From an uncultured Eubacteriales bacterium (lineage in GTDB: Bacteria > Bacillota > Clostridia > Oscillospirales > Acutalibacteraceae), in contig CASGAS010000009.1 of assembly GCA_949299505.1 (NCBI GenBank), positions 1 to 38,304 on the forward strand: 38,304 bases of DNA. Reading direction: 5' to 3'. The position numbers and the translations under genes were made by a program. Position 1 is the first letter of the stretch. Every line of letters starts with the position of its first letter. The notes beneath the pieces are model-generated. The model worked only from the letters and a program-made list of their open reading frames with translations. It made no database searches and had not been told where the DNA came from. This document shows positions 6,712 to 27,650 of this stretch, piece by piece.

Positions 6712-7679
6712 CATGTGTTTTCCTGCAGAATGGCGGCTGCGATTTCCTCCAGCTGCTCCACGCTTTCCAGCGTCGCCAGGTCGCGCCGCCACGCCGCTGC
6801 GCCGCGAATCCCCTTGACGTACCAAGCGGCGTGCTTGCGCGCCTCCCGAATTCCGACGCGCTCTCCCTTGTACGCGCAAATTTTGCGGACGTGCGCGCAC
6901 ATAACGCGCATGCGTGTCTCGACCGACGGCTCCGGGGACAGCTCTCCGTTTTTCAGGTAGTCTTCAATCTGCCGAAAGACCCACGGGCGGCCGAGCGCGC
7001 CGCGGCCGACCATAAGAAAATCACAGCCGGTCGCTTCCAGCATGTGCTTTGCAGATGGTCCGTCTACAATGTCGCCGTTGCCGATTACGGGGATTTGCAC
7101 GGCGCGCTTGACGGCGGCGATGCTGTCCAAAAGCACCGGCGGCGCATACATCTGCGCGCGCGTGCGCCCGTGTACGGTGACGGCGGCTGCGCCGGCGGCT
7201 TGGGCACGCTTCGCCATTTCGACTGCGTTGAGATGGTCCGCGTCCCAGCCCGCGCGGATTTTAACGGTCACCGGCACGTCTTCACAGGCGCGCACCACGG
7301 CGCGGATGATTTTTTCCGCTTGCGCCGGATTGCGCATCAGGGCGGCGCCGCCGCCGTTCCCGGCGATTTTCGGTGCGGGGCAGCCCATATTGATATCGAC
7401 AAACTGCGGCTTGCTTTGCAAAACGGTCTCGACGCTTTTCGCCATGATTTCCGCGTCAGAGCCGAAAATCTGCACGCCTGCCGGGCGTTCGGCGGCGGAA
7501 AGCCGCATTAGGGATTTGGACTTTCTGTCACCCATGGAGATTCCCTTGGAGCTAACCATTTCCGAAACGGTATACGAAGCGCCGAAAGAGACGCACAGCT
7601 CCCGAAAGGCACGGTCCGCAACGCCGGCCATCGGGGCCAGCGCGGCAAACCCTTTTGTTTCCCAATTCCCAATCCGCAT
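6711..7679 (-). CDS. dusB: tRNA-dihydrouridine synthase, DusB type
   Basis: FMN enzyme that reduces specific uridines in tRNA to dihydrouridine using NAD(P)H. About 322 residues. The family motif LAPMAGVADRAFR opens the TIM barrel. VDINMGCPAPKI holds the conserved Asn and the catalytic Cys region, VTVKIRAGWD carries the FMN-binding Lys, and VTVHGRTRAQMY, IPVIGNGDI and FLMVGRGALGRPW complete the FMN/phosphate sites. The start chosen is the ATG at 7679, because the reverse strand has GGAGAAG 5-8 bases before it; the frame stays open a further 16 codons upstream without support. It is the only confidently real minus-strand gene in the window. It is divergent from polA and ends in a shared terminator with spo0A. 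Confidence 0.95.
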   Translation of the reverse strand: MRIGNWETKGFAALAPMAGVADRAFRELCVSFGASYTVSEMVSSKGISMGDRKSKSLMRLSAAERPAGVQIFGSDAEIMAKSVETVLQSKPQFVDINMGCPAPKIAGNGGGAALMRNPAQAEKIIRAVVRACEDVPVTVKIRAGWDADHLNAVEMAKRAQAAGAAAVTVHGRTRAQMYAPPVLLDSIAAVKRAVQIPVIGNGDIVDGPSAKHMLEATGCDFLMVGRGALGRPWVFRQIEDYLKNGELSPEPSVETRMRVMCAHVRKICAYKGERVGIREARKHAAWYVKGIRGAAAWRRDLATLESVEQLEEIAAAILQENT

Positions 7680-7717
7680 GGTTCTTCTCCATTCCCGCCT
7701 GTGATGTAAGCAACAGC

Positions 7718-7746
7718 AGTATACCACACTTTATTTTGGCTTACAA
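7718..7746 (-). promoter_or_regulatory. Sigma-A promoter of dusB
   Basis: On the minus strand: TTGTAA (7746-7741), a 17-base spacer, then TATACT (7723-7718) preceded by TGG (extended -10). It is divergent from the polA promoter, and the two -35 boxes are only about 11 bases apart. Confidence 0.7.
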
Positions 7747-7757
7747 CCAAAAATCCC

Positions 7758-7786
7758 GTGCAAAACGGCCTGCGTTATGGTATAGT
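7758..7786 (+). promoter_or_regulatory. Probable promoter of polA
   Basis: TATAGT at 7781-7786 is preceded by TGG, making an extended -10. The -35 position 17 bases upstream (GTGCAA, 7758-7763) is poor, which is common with extended -10 promoters. The gap holds no other candidate. Confidence 0.5.
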
Positions 7787-7816
7787 ATAAATAGTAAAAG
7801 ATTTGGAGGCGTTCCC

Positions 7817-10378
7817 ATGAAGCTGCTGGTATTGGACGGCAACAGCATTCTGAATCGGGCGTTCTACGGCATCAAATTGCTGACGACCAAAGACGGTCGT
7901 TTCACGAACGGAATCTACGGCTTTCTCAATATCCTCTTAAAGCTGGAAGAGGACGTCAAGCCGGACGCGGTCGCCGTCACCTTTGATTTGAAAGCCCCGA
8001 CGTTCCGGCACCGACTCTATGACGGGTACAAGGCCACGCGCAAGGGAATGCCGGCGGAGCTTGCCGAGCAGCTTCCCGTTTTGAAAACGCTGCTGACGGC
8101 GCTCGGGTATAAGCTTGTGACGAAGGAAGGGTACGAGGCGGACGACCTTATCGGCACGCTTAGCGCGCACGTCGGCGAACAGAACCAATGCTATATCGCG
8201 ACGGGGGACCGCGACAGCCTGCAGCTGGTGCGACCGAACGTACAGGTCCTTTTAACGGCGACGCGGATGGGCCGCACGGAAACCGCCGTTTATGACGAGG
8301 CCCGCGTTCAGGACGAGTACGGCGTAACGCCGAAGCAGATGATTGACATCAAAGCGCTCATGGGGGACAGCTCCGACAACATCCCCGGCGTTGGCGGCGT
8401 CGGCAAAAAGACCGCCGAAATGCTGATACAGACCTTCGGCTCGCTGGACGGCCTGTATGCCGACCTCGACTCCGAGCGCATCAAGCCCGGGGTGCGGCAA
8501 AAACTGGAGCAGGACCGGGATATGGCGTATTTGAGCTATAAGCTCGGTACGATTGACTGCGACGTGCCCATGGAAACCGACCCGCAGGCGTATCGGAAAA
8601 GCCCTGCGGACGCGCAGGAGGCCGTTTCGCTTCTCACGTCTCTTGAAATGTTCAAAATCCTGGAAAAGCTGCATTTCGACGAGGCTCCCGACGCCGCAAA
8701 ACAGCCGGCAGCCCCCGCGGAAATCCTGGCGCTTGCCCAGGGTATGCCGGCGCGCAGCGCGCTGCTTTCCGGCGCGTATTTCGCCCTCTATGGCGAAAAG
8801 GCGTATTTCCGCACGGACCGGGCGGTGGAGGTCGCCGATTTAACGGACGCCAAGCAAAAGGTTGACTTTCTCTCCTTGCTGGCGGACGAAACGGTGCCGA
8901 AGTATGTGTATTCCGCAAAAGAAGTGTACGCATTCGCGTTTCACTGCGGTACGCAGGTGCAGAATGTTTGCATGGACGTAACGCTTGCGGCCTATCTTCT
9001 CAACCCGAACGCAAAGGACTATGCGCTGGAGCGCCTGGTGCAGGAATATTGCCCGCATACAACGCAGGTGGAGGCGGGGGAGGACGCGCTTGCAAACGCC
9101 TGCGCCGGACTTCCCGTGCTCTGCGACAAGCTGCTGACCCGTTTGGAAACCAACGAACAGACGGCGCTTTTGCGGGAAATCGAGATTCCGCTTGCCGAGG
9201 TGCTCGCCTCCATGGAGCAGGTCGGCGTGCTGGTGGACCGGCCCGGAATCGAACGGTATTCGGAAATGCTCGACGGCCGCATTGAAACGGTCCAGTCCCG
9301 TATATACGCGCTCGCCGGCGAATCGTTCAATATTCATTCGCCCAAGCAGCTTGGCGAGGTGCTGTTTGAAAAACTGCACCTTCCGGCGCGCAAAAAAACA
9401 AAGACCGGGTACTCGACCAACGCCGAGGTGCTCGAGGGACTGGCGGACGACTACGAGATTGTACGCAAGATTTTAGAGTACCGAACGCTGACGAAGCTCA
9501 AGTCCACCTATTGCGACGGCCTTTTGAAGGTGATCGGCCCGGACGGGCGCATCCATTCGAGCTTCAACCAGACCGAAACGCGCACGGGGCGCATTTCTTC
9601 AACGGAGCCGAATTTGCAGAATATTCCGGTTCGCTCGGAGCTCGGACGCGAGATGCGGCGCTTTTTCACGGCGGCAGAGGGCAGCGTGCTGGTGGACGCG
9701 GACTATTCGCAAATCGAGCTTCGCGTGCTCGCGGACGTGGCGGACGACCCGGCGATGATTGCGGCGTTCAATACGGATACGGATATACACGCCGTTACGG
9801 CCTCTCAGGTGTTCCACATGCCGCTTTCCATGGTTACGCCGCTTATGCGCAGCCGCGCCAAGGCGGTCAATTTCGGGATTGTATACGGCATCGGGGCGTT
9901 TTCCCTAAGCAAGGACATCGGCGTAACGCGCGCGCAGGCGGACCAGTATATCAAGGATTATCTGCACCACTATGCGGGCGTGGAACGCTACATGGAGCAG
10001 GTTGTTGCACAGGCGAAAAAAGACGGATATGTGACGACGCGATTCCACCGCAGACGGTATTTGCCGGAGCTTTCCTCCTCCAACGCCATGCTGCGTGCGT
10101 TCGGCGAACGCGTGGCGCGCAATATGCCCATACAGGGCACGGCGGCGGACATTATTAAAATTGCTATGATTCGGGTGTACCGGCGCTTGCAGGAGGAGCA
10201 CTGCAAAGCGCGGCTGATTTTGCAGGTGCACGACGAGCTGATTGTGGAAGCCCCACAGGAGGAGGCGCAGAAGGTCGCGCAAATTGTTTCGCGCGAGATG
10301 GAAAACGCCTGCGAAATGAAAGTGCGGCTGAAAAGCGAGGCCAATATCGGAAAAACCTGGTACGACGCAAAGGGGTGA
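7817..10378 (+). CDS. polA: DNA polymerase I
   Basis: Repair and Okazaki-fragment polymerase, 853 residues. The start is ATG 7817, with GGAGG 7-8 bases upstream and the protein beginning MKLLVLDGNSILNRAFYG, a standard PolA N-terminus. Residues 1 to about 290 are the 5'-3' flap nuclease (the Asp-rich ATGDRDSLQL and DIKALMGDSSDNIPGV segments). Residues about 305-465 correspond to the 3'-5' exonuclease fold, but the Asp-x-Glu of the first exonuclease motif is absent (the strand reads YFALYGEKAYF), so proofreading is probably lost, as known for Bacillus-type and Taq Pol I. The polymerase domain keeps motif A (DYSQIELR, about residue 629), motif B (RSRAKAVNFGIVYG, about 678) and motif C (QVHDELIVE, about 803). 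The fusion gene starts 4 bases after the stop, so they share a transcript. Confidence 0.97.
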   Translation: MKLLVLDGNSILNRAFYGIKLLTTKDGRFTNGIYGFLNILLKLEEDVKPDAVAVTFDLKAPTFRHRLYDGYKATRKGMPAELAEQLPVLKTLLTALGYKLVTKEGYEADDLIGTLSAHVGEQNQCYIATGDRDSLQLVRPNVQVLLTATRMGRTETAVYDEARVQDEYGVTPKQMIDIKALMGDSSDNIPGVGGVGKKTAEMLIQTFGSLDGLYADLDSERIKPGVRQKLEQDRDMAYLSYKLGTIDCDVPMETDPQAYRKSPADAQEAVSLLTSLEMFKILEKLHFDEAPDAAKQPAAPAEILALAQGMPARSALLSGAYFALYGEKAYFRTDRAVEVADLTDAKQKVDFLSLLADETVPKYVYSAKEVYAFAFHCGTQVQNVCMDVTLAAYLLNPNAKDYALERLVQEYCPHTTQVEAGEDALANACAGLPVLCDKLLTRLETNEQTALLREIEIPLAEVLASMEQVGVLVDRPGIERYSEMLDGRIETVQSRIYALAGESFNIHSPKQLGEVLFEKLHLPARKKTKTGYSTNAEVLEGLADDYEIVRKILEYRTLTKLKSTYCDGLLKVIGPDGRIHSSFNQTETRTGRISSTEPNLQNIPVRSELGREMRRFFTAAEGSVLVDADYSQIELRVLADVADDPAMIAAFNTDTDIHAVTASQVFHMPLSMVTPLMRSRAKAVNFGIVYGIGAFSLSKDIGVTRAQADQYIKDYLHHYAGVERYMEQVVAQAKKDGYVTTRFHRRRYLPELSSSNAMLRAFGERVARNMPIQGTAADIIKIAMIRVYRRLQEEHCKARLILQVHDELIVEAPQEEAQKVAQIVSREMENACEMKVRLKSEANIGKTWYDAKG

Positions 10379-10382
10379 CGGG

Positions 10383-11249
10383 ATGCGCCGTGTGATTTTT
10401 GTTTGTACGGGGAATACCTGCCGCAGTCCCATGGCGGCGGGGCTGTTTGGCGCTTATGCTGCGGAAAAAGGCGTGGCTTCCCTTGTAACGGTGTGCAGCG
10501 CCGGGCTTGCGGCTCTGGAAAACGCGCCCGTTTCCGAAAACGCGGTACGTGCCGCGGCTTCTCTTGGCGCGGACATTGCGCAGCACCGCGCGCACAATCT
10601 AACCGCCGATATGGTGACGGCGCAAACGCGGTTTGTCTGCATGACCGCACAGCACGCGCTGGCGCTGCAAAACGCGGGCATTCCGAAAACGCAGCTGCTG
10701 GCGCTGGATGTTTCGGACCCGTACGGGGGAGACGAAGCGGTGTACCGCGCCTGCGCGCAGCAGCTTAGCGCGGCCATGCCGCTTGTATTCCGCTTTGTGT
10801 TCGGCTGCGATGATATTCGCCCCATGCAGCGTCAGGACGCCGAAGCGGCGGCCGAAATAGAGCGCGCCTGCTTTGCGCATCCGTGGAGCGAAGCGGCGCT
10901 TCTTGCGTCTTTGGAGCAGGAAGGCGCCCGATTTTTCCTGTTGACGGCAGAGGGTCGGCCCGCCGGGTACATCGGCGCCAATCTCGTCTGCGGAGAAGGC
11001 TATATGAACAACCTGGCCGTGCTTTCGGCGTTTCGCCGGCGCGGCTTCGGCCGTATGCTGCTCGCGGCGCTAACCGCTCGGCTGCAGGCGGAAAGCGCGG
11101 AATTTTTGACGCTGGAGGTCCGGCAGAGCAATGCTGCGGCGATTGCTTTGTACCGGGAGGCGGGGTTCAAGCAGGCCGGCATACGGAAAAATTTCTACCG
11201 CGACCCGCAGGAGGACGCCGTTTTGATGACTTTGGAACTTTTGACGTAA
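10383..11249 (+). CDS. Fusion: low-molecular-weight (arginine-type) protein phosphatase + RimI-like N-acetyltransferase
   Basis: One uninterrupted 288-residue ORF with two enzymes. Residues 1 to about 138 form a low-molecular-weight phosphatase. The P-loop VCTGNTCRSPMA has the nucleophile Cys8 and the Thr that in B. subtilis YwlE favours phospho-arginine, and DPYGGDEAVY near residue 117 carries the general-acid Asp. Residues about 141-288 form a GNAT acetyltransferase of RimI type: DIRPMQRQDAEAAAEIE and FAHPWSEAAL at the start, the acetyl-CoA loop RRRGFGRML, then LEVRQSNAAAIALYREAGF and RKNFYRDPQEDAVLM. RimI acetylates the N-terminus of ribosomal protein S18 in E. coli. The two activities are normally separate genes. 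The linker is only a few residues, and the phosphatase part is slightly shorter than free-standing YwlE (about 150). GGGGTGACGGG supplies the ribosome site. No internal start with a good ribosome site is obvious at the junction. Confidence 0.9.
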   Translation: MRRVIFVCTGNTCRSPMAAGLFGAYAAEKGVASLVTVCSAGLAALENAPVSENAVRAAASLGADIAQHRAHNLTADMVTAQTRFVCMTAQHALALQNAGIPKTQLLALDVSDPYGGDEAVYRACAQQLSAAMPLVFRFVFGCDDIRPMQRQDAEAAAEIERACFAHPWSEAALLASLEQEGARFFLLTAEGRPAGYIGANLVCGEGYMNNLAVLSAFRRRGFGRMLLAALTARLQAESAEFLTLEVRQSNAAAIALYREAGFKQAGIRKNFYRDPQEDAVLMTLELLT

Positions 11250-11319: not shown

Positions 11320-11348
11320 AAGGGTGAAATTGAATTTTGTCGAAAAAA
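11294..11348. promoter_or_regulatory. Inverted pair of Spo0A boxes flanking the promoter -10
   Basis: TTTTTTCGACAAAA (11294-11307) and TTTTGTCGAAAAAA (11335-11348) are exact reverse complements over 14 bases, 27 bases apart. Each contains the 0A-box core TGTCGAA (11304-11298 on the minus strand and 11338-11344 on the plus strand). The TATAAT box lies between them. The geometry suggests Spo0A binding on both sides of the promoter, more likely repressing than activating; this is inference. Confidence 0.65.
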
Positions 11349-11359
11349 TGAGGGTAAAA

Positions 11360-12415
11360 ATGGAGTACAGGGATCCGAATCGTCCTGCGCGCCCGAGTCC
11401 GCGCGCACGCCAAAATCAGCGTATCCAGCAAATCCGACAGCTTAGAACGGTGCTTCTTATTTGCGCGATTATCATCGCCGTTCTTGCCGTGGCCCTTACG
11501 GTGTTCGCCGTGCGCAGCCACCGTATGACCGAGGCGGACGTCGTACAGGAAAAGGCTTATGCGAGCCTGTCGGCGGCGTTTGCGTCCGAGCAGGAGGAGC
11601 GTTCACAGGAGGGCTCCTCCTACCAGGCGCAGCTTGACGAGCAGAGCAAGGCGCACGCCAGCGAAAAGGATGCGCTGGAAGCAACCATTTCCGATTTGAA
11701 TCGGCAGCTTTCCCTAAAGCAGGCGGCGGCGACCAGTTCGCCGTCGTCCGGGTCTTCCGGTTCTTCCGGTTCTTCCTCAGACCTATCTCAAAAAACAATT
11801 TATTTAACCTTTGACGACGGCCCGTCGCCCCGTACGCCCGAGATCTTGAAGATTCTCGATCAATACGGCGTGAAGGCGACTTTTTTTGTGATTAACGGCG
11901 GCAAGTATAACCACTATATGAAGGATATTGTCAACGCCGGGCACGCCATAGCGCTGCACTCGTACACACATTCCTATTCCACAATCTACGCTTCGGAGTC
12001 CGCTTATTTTTCCGACCTGCAAAAGATTTCCGACGTCGTTTACGAACAGACCGGCGTGCGCACGAAGCTGATTCGCTTCCCGGGCGGCAGCAGCAACACC
12101 GTCAGCCGGAAGTATTCCTCCGGCATTATGTCGCGCCTTACAAAGCAGGTGGAAAGCAAGGGCTACGTCTATTTTGACTGGAACCTTTCCTCCGGCGACG
12201 CGGACGGCAACCGCGTCCCGGCGCAGACGCTGATTAACAACTGCCGCAAGGTGCCGCGCTCGAATTCCGTGATTGTGCTCATGCACGACGCGTCCGTCAA
12301 AAAAACGACGGTCGAAGCGCTGCCGGCGATTATTGAGTATTACAAAAAAGCCGGCTGCAAATTCGCAAAGCTTACGGAATCTTCGCCGACCGCGCACCAG
12401 CGGGTGCTCAACTGA
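11360..12415 (+). CDS. Membrane-anchored polysaccharide (peptidoglycan) deacetylase, NodB domain
   Basis: Probably removes N-acetyl groups from peptidoglycan or another cell-wall polymer outside the membrane. From ATG 11360 (AGGG 6 bases upstream) it has 351 residues: a basic cytoplasmic tail (1-29, Arg/Pro rich), one transmembrane helix (30-51), a charged coiled-coil-like stalk (about 62-120), a Ser/Gly linker (128-140) and a NodB domain from about 145. The motifs are complete: TFDDGP with catalytic Asp152 and metal Asp153, metal His200 and His204 in HSYTHSY, RFPGG and the C-terminal LMHD. An alternative ATG at 11348 overlaps the downstream 0A box. The gene stands alone between its own promoter and terminator. 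The flanking 0A boxes tie it to Spo0A. Whether it acts in vegetative wall (PgdA-like) or spore cortex (PdaA-like) is undecided. Confidence 0.9.
   Translation: MEYRDPNRPARPSPRARQNQRIQQIRQLRTVLLICAIIIAVLAVALTVFAVRSHRMTEADVVQEKAYASLSAAFASEQEERSQEGSSYQAQLDEQSKAHASEKDALEATISDLNRQLSLKQAAATSSPSSGSSGSSGSSSDLSQKTIYLTFDDGPSPRTPEILKILDQYGVKATFFVINGGKYNHYMKDIVNAGHAIALHSYTHSYSTIYASESAYFSDLQKISDVVYEQTGVRTKLIRFPGGSSNTVSRKYSSGIMSRLTKQVESKGYVYFDWNLSSGDADGNRVPAQTLINNCRKVPRSNSVIVLMHDASVKKTTVEALPAIIEYYKKAGCKFAKLTESSPTAHQRVLN
11752..11776 (+). repeat. 9-bp tandem repeat coding for Gly-Ser-Ser linker
   Basis: Nearly identical 9-base units (TTCTTCCGG type) repeat 2.8 times and encode the GSSGSSGSS linker between the stalk and the NodB domain. 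Such in-frame units can change linker length by slippage. Confidence 0.7.
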
Positions 12416-25758: not shown

Positions 25759-26817
25759 TTGTCAAAAAAGCAGAAAAAGGCCTGTCCGTACAGCTCCGTC
25801 GGGGGACAGGCGCTTATCGAGGGGATCATGATGCGCGGACCGAAAGGAACCGCCATGTCGGTGCGCCTGCCGAGCGGGGAAATTGAAACGGAGTATAAGG
25901 AAACAAAGCCCTGGCGCGACAAATGCCGTTTGTTTCGCCTGCCGCTTGTGCGCGGGATTGTCGGGTTTGCGGAATCCCTGGTGACGGGGTACGGCTATCT
26001 GATGGAATCTGCGGAAAAATCCACCCAGGGGTTAACGGACGAAACGGAGGAGCTTTCCAAGTTCGACCGCTGGCTTAATGACCACTTCGGCGAAAAGATG
26101 ATGCACGCCATTGGCATTATCGCCGCCGTTCTCGGGTTCGGCTTGGCCTTTTTCCTGTTTATGTGGCTGCCTACGTTCTTAGTCGACGTGGCGACCCGGG
26201 GCGCGCTTTTGAAGTTCCACGCGCTGCTTGAGGGGATTATTCGCGTCATCATTTTTGTCCTTTATATGGTCCTTGTGTCCCGTATGAAAGACATTCACCG
26301 TGTGTTCATGTATCATGGCGCCGAGCATAAATCCATTTTCTGCTACGAGCACGGTCTGCCGCTTACCGTGGACAATGTCCGGCAGCAAAAACGCTTTCAC
26401 CCGCGCTGCGGAACGAGCTTTATGTTCGTCATGATTATTTTAAGCATCCTGCTTTCTTCGGCGCTGGTCCTTATTTTTCCGGGTCTTGCCGAAATCAACC
26501 GGGTTCTGTGGATTTGTGTTAAGCTCTTAATCCTGCCGGTCGTGATGGGGATTGGCTATGAGTTCATCCGGTACGCCGGAAAACACGACAACCTGTTTGT
26601 CAAGCTGCTTGCCGCGCCGGGGCTGTGGATGCAGCGCATCACGACCAAAGAGCCGACGGACGATATTATTGAGGTCGGCATTGCCTCCCTGACAGCTGTG
26701 CTGGACGCCGACAATCCGGCAAAAGCGGACGCGGGCGCGTCTTCGGCGGCATTGCCGCAGGAGCCGGAAAGCGCACAGGAGGATTCGTCTGTCGGGGAGG
26801 GCGGTCAAACGCCATGA
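25759..26817 (+). CDS. DUF1385 multi-pass membrane protein
   Basis: About 352 residues. The start chosen is TTG 25759, because AAGGAG ends 7 bases upstream; ATG 25753, two codons earlier, overlaps the kinase stop but sits only 1 base from the site. The family hallmark YSSVGGQALIEGIMMRGPKG is at the N-terminus, then FRLPLVRGIVGFAESLV, hydrophobic helices (about residues 115-150, 165-185, 230-255 and 260-285), and the conserved MYHGAEHKSIFCYE and HPRCGTSFMF segments rich in His and Cys, which could bind a metal. The C-terminal 40 residues are Ala/Glu/Asp rich. Function unknown. DUF1385 genes commonly lie before prmC in Firmicutes, as here (4-base overlap). Confidence 0.88.
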   Translation: MSKKQKKACPYSSVGGQALIEGIMMRGPKGTAMSVRLPSGEIETEYKETKPWRDKCRLFRLPLVRGIVGFAESLVTGYGYLMESAEKSTQGLTDETEELSKFDRWLNDHFGEKMMHAIGIIAAVLGFGLAFFLFMWLPTFLVDVATRGALLKFHALLEGIIRVIIFVLYMVLVSRMKDIHRVFMYHGAEHKSIFCYEHGLPLTVDNVRQQKRFHPRCGTSFMFVMIILSILLSSALVLIFPGLAEINRVLWICVKLLILPVVMGIGYEFIRYAGKHDNLFVKLLAAPGLWMQRITTKEPTDDIIEVGIASLTAVLDADNPAKADAGASSAALPQEPESAQEDSSVGEGGQTP

Positions 26818-27650
26818 CGGTTGCGGAAAGTTACCGGCAGGGCCTGCAGGCGTTAACGGCGGCCGGAATCGAGGATGCGGCGTTTGACTGCGGGTGCCTG
26901 TTTGCCTTTTTTTGCGGCTATTCCCACGCGCTGCGCCTGGCGCACGCAAACGACTGCCTTTCTTCGGAGAAGTCCGACGCGTTTCTTGCGGCGGTTCAGC
27001 GCAGGGCAAGCGGAGAACCGCTGCAGTATATTCTCGGCAGCTGGTCGTTTTACGGACGGACTTTTCTTGTCGGCCCCGGCATCTTGATTCCAAGGCCGGA
27101 AACGGAGCTTTTGGTGCACGAGGCGCTGCGCGCCGTTGCAAATAAAGCGCATCCGGTGATTTGGGACCTTTGCGCGGGAACGGGCTGCATTGGGCTTACG
27201 CTTGCGCTGGAACGGCCGGACGCGCAGGTGTTCCTGCTTGAGAAGTTTTCGGATGCGTTTTCCTACTTGGAAAAAAATCGACGCGCGCTCGGCGCTGGGA
27301 ACGCGTCGCTTTTGCAGGCGGATGTTCTGTCTGAGCCGCCTGAACTGCCGCGTCCCGATTTGATTGTATCCAACCCGCCGTATGTCCCGACGCCGGAGCT
27401 GCCGCTTTTGCAGGCGGAGGTGCAGGCCGAGCCTGCGACCGCGTTGGACGGCGGTGCGGACGGGCTCTGCTTTTTCCGGGCGATTCGCCGGTTTTGGTTG
27501 CCGCGCCTTTGCGGGGGCGGGGTGCTGCTGCTGGAATGCGGCGACGGCCAGGGCGAGACGGTTGCCGACCTGCTGCGCACGCCAAAAGCGCGGGCGCGCG
27601 TGCTTTATGACGGAAATCGTATTGACAGATTTGTAGAAATTACAGTATAA
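26814..27650 (+). CDS. prmC: Peptide chain release factor N5-glutamine methyltransferase
   Basis: Methylates the Gln of the GGQ motif in release factors RF1 and RF2. 278 residues: an N-terminal helical domain (to about 75, with RRASGEPLQYILG near its end), then FLVGPGILIPRPETE, the SAM-binding WDLCAGTGCIGLTLAL and the catalytic NPPY (IVSNPPYVPT). The length is typical. prfA, the frequent partner, is not adjacent. The 3' end carries a strong promoter for the next operon. The frame overlaps DUF1385 by 4 bases. Confidence 0.95.
   Translation: MTVAESYRQGLQALTAAGIEDAAFDCGCLFAFFCGYSHALRLAHANDCLSSEKSDAFLAAVQRRASGEPLQYILGSWSFYGRTFLVGPGILIPRPETELLVHEALRAVANKAHPVIWDLCAGTGCIGLTLALERPDAQVFLLEKFSDAFSYLEKNRRALGAGNASLLQADVLSEPPELPRPDLIVSNPPYVPTPELPLLQAEVQAEPATALDGGADGLCFFRAIRRFWLPRLCGGGVLLLECGDGQGETVADLLRTPKARARVLYDGNRIDRFVEITV

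Follow-up and report, generated by a model that had tools for sequence, protein, structure and literature searches.

Gene organization and domain content

The window, i.e. the whole stretch of 38,304 nucleotides analysed here, comes from an uncultured Eubacteriales bacterium of the Acutalibacteraceae and contains, directly downstream of polA, a gene encoding a low-molecular-weight (LMW) phosphatase domain and a RimI-type N-acetyltransferase domain in one chain (Table 1). A sequence-only reading of this DNA had described such a continuous ORF, with the phosphatase preceding a GNAT domain, and this description is borne out by the Pfam and NCBIfam matches and by uninterrupted homologs in related genomes. 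Pfam LMWPc covers residues 4-131 (75.3 bits, cut-off 23.2) and Acetyltransf_1 residues 155-262 (65.3 bits, cut-off 20.7), and the NCBIfam RimI equivalog TIGR01575 matches residues 152-282 with 120.2 bits for a cut-off of 86.4; a second RimI model, PRK09491, stays under its own cut-off (92 versus 173). The phosphatase half displays the LMW-PTP fold, the CX4CR(S/T) P-loop and an Asp general acid, D112, which in alignments to PDB entries coincides with the Asp of DPY(G). The RimI domain is complete, as the same reading had proposed, since it passes the TIGR01575 cut-off and has E245 and Y257 aligned with Glu103 and Tyr115 of E. coli RimI, the catalytic residues of this enzyme.

Table 1. Features of the fused locus and its surroundings in the window
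Feature	Position	Strand	Residues and remarks
polA	7655..10378	+	listed ORF, which probably starts later in reality; ends 4 nt ahead of the fused gene
Fused gene, YwlE-type LMW phosphatase and RimI-type N-acetyltransferase (predicted)	10383..11249	+	single ATG ORF, 288 aa
Phosphatase domain	10392..10802	+	aa 4-140 (final helix aa 132-140); Pfam LMWPc, model helices H118-130 and H132-140
P-loop CTGNTCRS	10404..10427	+	aa 8-15 (C8, T12, R14, S15); Thr at loop position 5, putative arginine type
DPYGG, general acid D112	10716..10730	+	aa 112-116; alignment to 4egs, profile alignment to YwlE
RimI (GNAT) domain	10812..11237	+	aa 144-285, about 3 residues past the last phosphatase helix; Pfam, NCBIfam, model
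E245, counterpart of RimI Glu103	11115..11117	+	alignment to E. coli RimI
Y257, counterpart of RimI Tyr115	11151..11153	+	alignment to E. coli RimI
Polysaccharide deacetylase, downstream neighbour	11324..12415	+	context
Diadenylate cyclase CdaA	20011-20919		TIGR00159, above cut-off; ordinary neighbourhood gene
PrmC	26814-27650		TIGR03534, above cut-off; ordinary neighbourhood gene

Purifying selection is seen on both domains, with dN/dS in 10 close pairs lying at 0.03-0.13 over the phosphatase part and at 0.06-0.30 over the RimI part; these values are rough because dS exceeds 1 in several of the pairs. An AlphaFold2 model of the fused chain, computed from the window protein and 45 proteins of related loci, reached a pLDDT of 98 and a pTM of 0.92; in it, the helix that ends the phosphatase (aa 132-140) leads into the first RimI strand (aa 144-147). 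According to this confident and rigid model, the two domains could communicate with each other. In Foldseek comparisons the RimI half resembled 5isv and 2cnm (TM 0.85-0.87 by target length) and the phosphatase half the LMW phosphatases 1u2p and 4egs and the YwlE entry 4kk3; among the best 50 rows, no chain aligned across more than 175 columns.

The position behind polA recurs in related loci. Of 115 fused or adjacent loci, 60 have a polA ORF ending at most 120 nt ahead of the phosphatase (56 of 109 once six loci repeating a genome are removed), and 13 have one at a greater distance upstream, on the same strand; none was seen in the other 42, several of which have short flanks.

Distribution of the fused gene

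Searches in the genomes of 59 relatives included 36 of the same genus, that of the window counted, among which 26 presented a full two-domain match without stop, eight the RimI part alone and two neither. The full chain was also retrieved from two genomes belonging to other families of the order (G051 and G057). Over the 394 genomes of the order, at least 17 uninterrupted two-domain matches, from genera of three families, were found among those listed, and the 391 genomes of the class yielded eight matches at E 1e-60 or better, five of them uninterrupted, including three that belong to a single genus of another order (G698, G714 and G765). In a scan over named records, 13 of the best 80 loci were fused, all 13 from uncultured or metagenome-assembled Clostridia-type records.

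Relatives thus also carry the chain as one ORF, the point that the sequence-only reading had proposed to confirm, and the fused ORF is genuine. That reading had also specified what would speak against it, namely relatives with two separate genes together with an error in the present sequence: two-gene relatives do exist, but the second part does not hold, the fusion being conserved in the genus and present in other genera and families.

The same reading knew of no described fusion of this kind and we did not find one either: in the literature searched, domain-architecture databases and subscription papers lying outside its scope, no description was found, judging from the entries listed, of a fusion of an arginine phosphatase (YwlE) or LMWPc domain with a RimI or GNAT domain. 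The fusion therefore appears undescribed within that literature, and an unremarked database entry may exist.

Identity of the phosphatase half

A profile built from 14 phosphatase domains had 59 matches in the PDB, headed by 4egs (140 bits) and the YwlE entries (114-128 bits) and followed by 2cwd (90 bits), the rest scoring 81 bits or less. Other comparisons were less discriminating, single-sequence phmmer separating YwlE and PtpA weakly and the Foldseek E-value placing M. tuberculosis PtpA (1u2p) slightly above YwlE. The catalytic Cys, Arg and Asp are kept in all 46 fused proteins, with Thr at loop position 5 in 44 and Ser in two (G001 and G002); in the 71 adjacent phosphatases, this position is Thr in 70 and Leu in one, and Glu replaces the Asp in two. 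One study reports that YwlE and PtpB owe their preference for phospho-arginine to Thr at this position, Ile giving a preference for phospho-tyrosine (PMC8001253). The fused protein has Thr where PtpA-type enzymes have Ile, and the one other LMW phosphatase of the genome is of the Ile type (HGNICRS).

Sequence comparison thus gives good support to the prediction of a YwlE-clade protein-arginine phosphatase in the N-terminal half. The earlier proposal that the Thr P-loop and DPYGG point to a YwlE-type enzyme is in agreement with both the sequence and the genome context described below. YwlE from B. subtilis (1zgg/4kk3) and G. stearothermophilus (4pic) and PtpB from S. aureus share with the fused protein the Thr at position 5 and the DP(F/Y)GG acid motif, and the presence of YwlE is tied to McsB, as is that of the phosphatase half here. 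YwlE and PtpB differ in being free-standing proteins of about 150 aa, whereas the phosphatase described here is fused to RimI, often behind polA, and is about 7 residues shorter before DPYGG than YwlE. For a protein-arginine phosphatase, as it is predicted to be, this gene setting is unusual. The best profile match, 4egs, is an LMW phosphatase from T. tengcongensis deposited under the molecule name Ribose 5-phosphate isomerase RpiB, which presumably reflects a phosphatase-RpiB fusion.

Co-occurrence with McsB and parallel decay

On contig 62, the genome of the window encodes McsB, which scores 293 bits against the Geobacillus protein, and behind it a Clp ATPase taken to be clpC. Phosphatases of this type were traced in the 394 genomes of the order by a DNA pattern that encodes C-x-G-N-T-C-R and ends in a Ser/Thr-like codon; the backward control pattern matched 13 genomes. 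McsB was found in 169 genomes and the Thr motif in 149, with both in 137, McsB only in 32, the motif only in 12 and neither in 213, a strong association when kinship is ignored (Fisher 7e-59); of the 168 genera, 81 have McsB and 75 the motif. The motif lies at most 1.5 kb upstream of the RimI end in 79 of the 83 genomes with both coordinates at hand, some RimI positions being taken from the full-chain search of relatives and one motif position (G040) being approximated; the four non-adjacent cases are G072, G073, G045 and G115.

Among the 32 McsB-only genomes, six do carry a phosphatase, fused to RimI or next to it, that escaped the pattern, with the P-loops CTANTCR (G210, L236), CSANTCR (G050 and G240; L241 and L240), CTGNLCR (G043, L135) and CSGNSCR (G001 and G002; L018 and L017). 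McsB is intact in G001, G002, G043 and G210 and damaged in G050 and G240. Some of the 12 motif-only genomes are incomplete and one match (G115) is spurious, with an in-frame TGA; five genomes that are 93-97% complete (G116, G123, G228, G251 and G329) have the motif without McsB and count as exceptions.

The McsB protein was then read in 142 of the genomes with a match, made up of 59 taken from McsB searches, 60 further phosphatase carriers with coordinates listed and 23 low-scoring genomes, added because the order-wide list stops short of its weak end. The columns of its catalytic trio, presumably E121, C167 and E212, were set by motif, using the leading Glu in NEEDH, Cys in CPTN and Glu in GEG. 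Phosphatase presence was taken from the motif list and from hand additions, i.e. 21 fused genomes of the same genus, the variant loops of G210, G043, G050 and G240, and G056 and G041. The trio is intact in 107 of 111 genomes with the phosphatase versus 8 of 31 without. Within the window's genus, McsB is intact in all 21 of the fused genomes read, the other five of the 26 being unread or without McsB match, and is damaged in seven of the eight genomes with RimI only.

The four phosphatase-bearing genomes without an intact trio are G050 and G240, where the CSANTCR pair stands alongside a damaged McsB, G097, and G103, whose contig stops short of the first residue, the sole reason for this score. 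G097 (L239, L109) shows the reverse of the rule, an intact Thr-type phosphatase-rimI pair beside a clearly damaged McsB. Conversely, of the eight genomes with an intact trio and no phosphatase, two lack a RimI match (G039, 55% complete, and G015, 77%) and four match the fused profile weakly (G042, G119, G258 and G269), so the locus may be missing from these assemblies. G006 and G386 are real exceptions, in which the trio is kept without the phosphatase, G006 having other changes nearby. G043 has Leu in place of Thr, and an intact McsB.

These patterns fit with a phosphatase that is retained in genomes where McsB is able to act and lost from most of those where it is not. A study on B. subtilis describes YwlE as keeping in check a McsB system that would otherwise be dangerous and as limiting McsB damage, and deletion of ywlE almost abolished heat-shock survival (PMC8370763). 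The larger result of this analysis is a natural experiment: where the phosphatase is absent, McsB has usually decayed and RimI is retained. It supports, from evolution, the published danger of an active McsB lacking its phosphatase. Phosphatase presence could also offer a simple genomic predictor of working arginine phosphorylation in bacteria.

A control search with PF00217 matched none of the 14 named genomes, B. subtilis included. It gives no support because B. subtilis has McsB (PMC8370763) and was nevertheless unmatched; this control seems unsuitable for the McsB family.

Repeated origin of the fusion and loss of the phosphatase domain

The set used for the trees, from which one short row (L192) and six duplicates had been dropped, comprised 134 rows: 71 with separate neighbouring genes on one strand, 46 fused, 15 with RimI only and two with the genes apart. 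The adjacent phosphatase and rimI pairs, from the same order and class, have domains, order and strand identical to those of the fused gene, but encode two proteins instead of one chain, a stop or small gaps separating the reading frames.

On the RimI tree the fused state required 12 changes, two of them forced by well-supported branches. As this tree has few columns and many open forks, a tree of PolA and RimI was also built, which keeps 81 of the 134 rows, no usable polA part having been found beside the others; it required six changes, three of them forced. Placing all its fused rows in one loss-free clade was rejected (AU p 1.4e-6), which rules out a single fusion event without losses. The fusion formed more than once, probably by the joining of two adjacent genes on the same strand. 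A recent case is provided by G224, which is fused, and G370 of the same genus, which is not. The fused chain of the genus outside the order (G698, G714 and G765; L354-L356) stands apart from the window's genus on the RimI tree and probably represents a separate fusion. Independent-pairs tests had only one or two usable pairs and hence no power.

The phosphatase domain has also been lost. The RimI-only genomes of the window's genus fall among the fused ones, and holding the fused rows of this genus apart from the RimI-only rows was rejected (AU p 0.001, for a group chosen after the tree was seen), so the phosphatase domain was most likely lost from the fused gene in at least two lineages. In the eight RimI-only genomes of this genus, rimI begins within about 22 nt after the polA stop. 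One genome that lost the fused domain, G028, contains on a contig other than that of rimI a fragment of 37 LMWPc positions with an in-frame TGA (L265, G028:C61:25438-25548).

Persistence of RimI without the phosphatase

The counterparts of Glu103 and Tyr115 are kept in all 132 rows considered (46 of 46 fused, 71 of 71 adjacent and 15 of 15 RimI-only), and a match to the RimI half was found in seven of the nine McsB-less genomes outside the genus among the relatives searched. RimI is thus retained without the phosphatase domain and alongside a damaged McsB, which argues for a function independent of the phosphatase. The sequence-only reading had imagined that the two activities might be targeted together to ribosomal substrates; this idea is not upheld, RimI persisting without the phosphatase and the phosphatase following McsB instead. 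The RimI half shares TIGR01575, both catalytic residues and the fold with RimI, the bS18-alanine N-acetyltransferase (5isv, 2cnm), which elsewhere is free-standing; bS18 is a putative substrate of the fused form.

Proposed function and alternative explanations

We consider it probable that the fused gene encodes two complete, separately acting enzymes in one chain, a YwlE-clade arginine phosphatase opposing McsB and a RimI-type N-alpha-acetyltransferase, and that it results from the repeated joining of adjacent genes. In the N-terminal half, Cys8 would be the nucleophile and Asp112 the acid, with Thr12 favouring phospho-arginine, and the phosphatase would counteract the McsB kinase, taking off the marks by which proteins are directed to ClpCP. 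An N-alpha-acetyltransferase of the RimI type would make up the C-terminal half, presumably without catalytic crosstalk between the two sites. Joining of the two same-strand neighbours would provide equal amounts of both enzymes, the likely benefit of the fusion, and RimI at least does not need it. As the phosphatase tracks McsB and RimI goes separately, the fused enzymes most likely share a neighbourhood rather than a substrate.

A coordinated enzyme, whose domains would share protein targets or regulate each other, for example by acetylating the N-termini of new or ribosomal proteins and clearing them of phospho-arginine, would agree with the repeated origin of the fusion, its retention by most genomes of one genus, the purifying selection on both domains and the predicted rigid arrangement with hardly any linker (pTM 0.92). 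We nevertheless regard it as unlikely, given the survival of RimI alone in genomes of the same genus, its match in most McsB-less genomes outside it and the prevalence of separate over fused genes in the tree set (71 versus 46). Its most elaborate form, a repeatedly evolved enzyme uniting through rigid domains the active sites for acetylating new, perhaps ribosomal, proteins and for removing McsB phospho-arginine from the same clients, is distinctly doubtful; if true, such a chain would couple protein quality control to protein maturation. A connection of RimI with arginine phosphorylation can also be sought in its gene neighbourhood. In many Firmicutes, B. subtilis included, rimI adjoins tsaD. 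TsaD of B. subtilis is reported to be a McsB/YwlE target (PMC7546277), and a link between RimI and McsB/YwlE via TsaD is conceivable. This target and the conserved phosphatase neighbourhood of rimI are what could be expected if the RimI half served the McsB pathway, e.g. through acetylation of McsB, of ClpC or of their substrates, and would account for the location of its gene next to the phosphatase; but both catalytic residues are preserved in the 15 RimI-only rows, most of which come from genomes with a damaged McsB, and RimI also occurs in genomes without McsB, making this explanation highly improbable.

Tyrosine phosphatases belong to the same superfamily, and phmmer and Foldseek, which separate the types poorly, would allow an ordinary tyrosine phosphatase with an incidental Thr; this is very unlikely, since the profile scores split YwlE and 4egs clearly from tyrosine phosphatases (114-140 versus at most 90 bits), Thr is kept in nearly all the fused proteins beside a separate Ile-type enzyme in the same genome, and phosphatase presence tracks an intact McsB. 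Separate adjacent genes being the commoner state in the tree set, a merge of two genes by assembly or sequencing error might have been suspected. The uninterrupted ORF in 26 of 36 genomes of the genus leads us to reject this error, which independent assemblies already contradict and which further genera and families with the same ORF and the low dN/dS on both sides of the junction render next to impossible.

McsB-family proteins in which catalytic residues have been lost are frequent in the order, with open frames of about 320-400 aa, for example in G059, G127, G139, G180, G203, G234, G325, G331, G393 and G113, and others among L094-L121. They may be pseudokinases that have kept a structural role.
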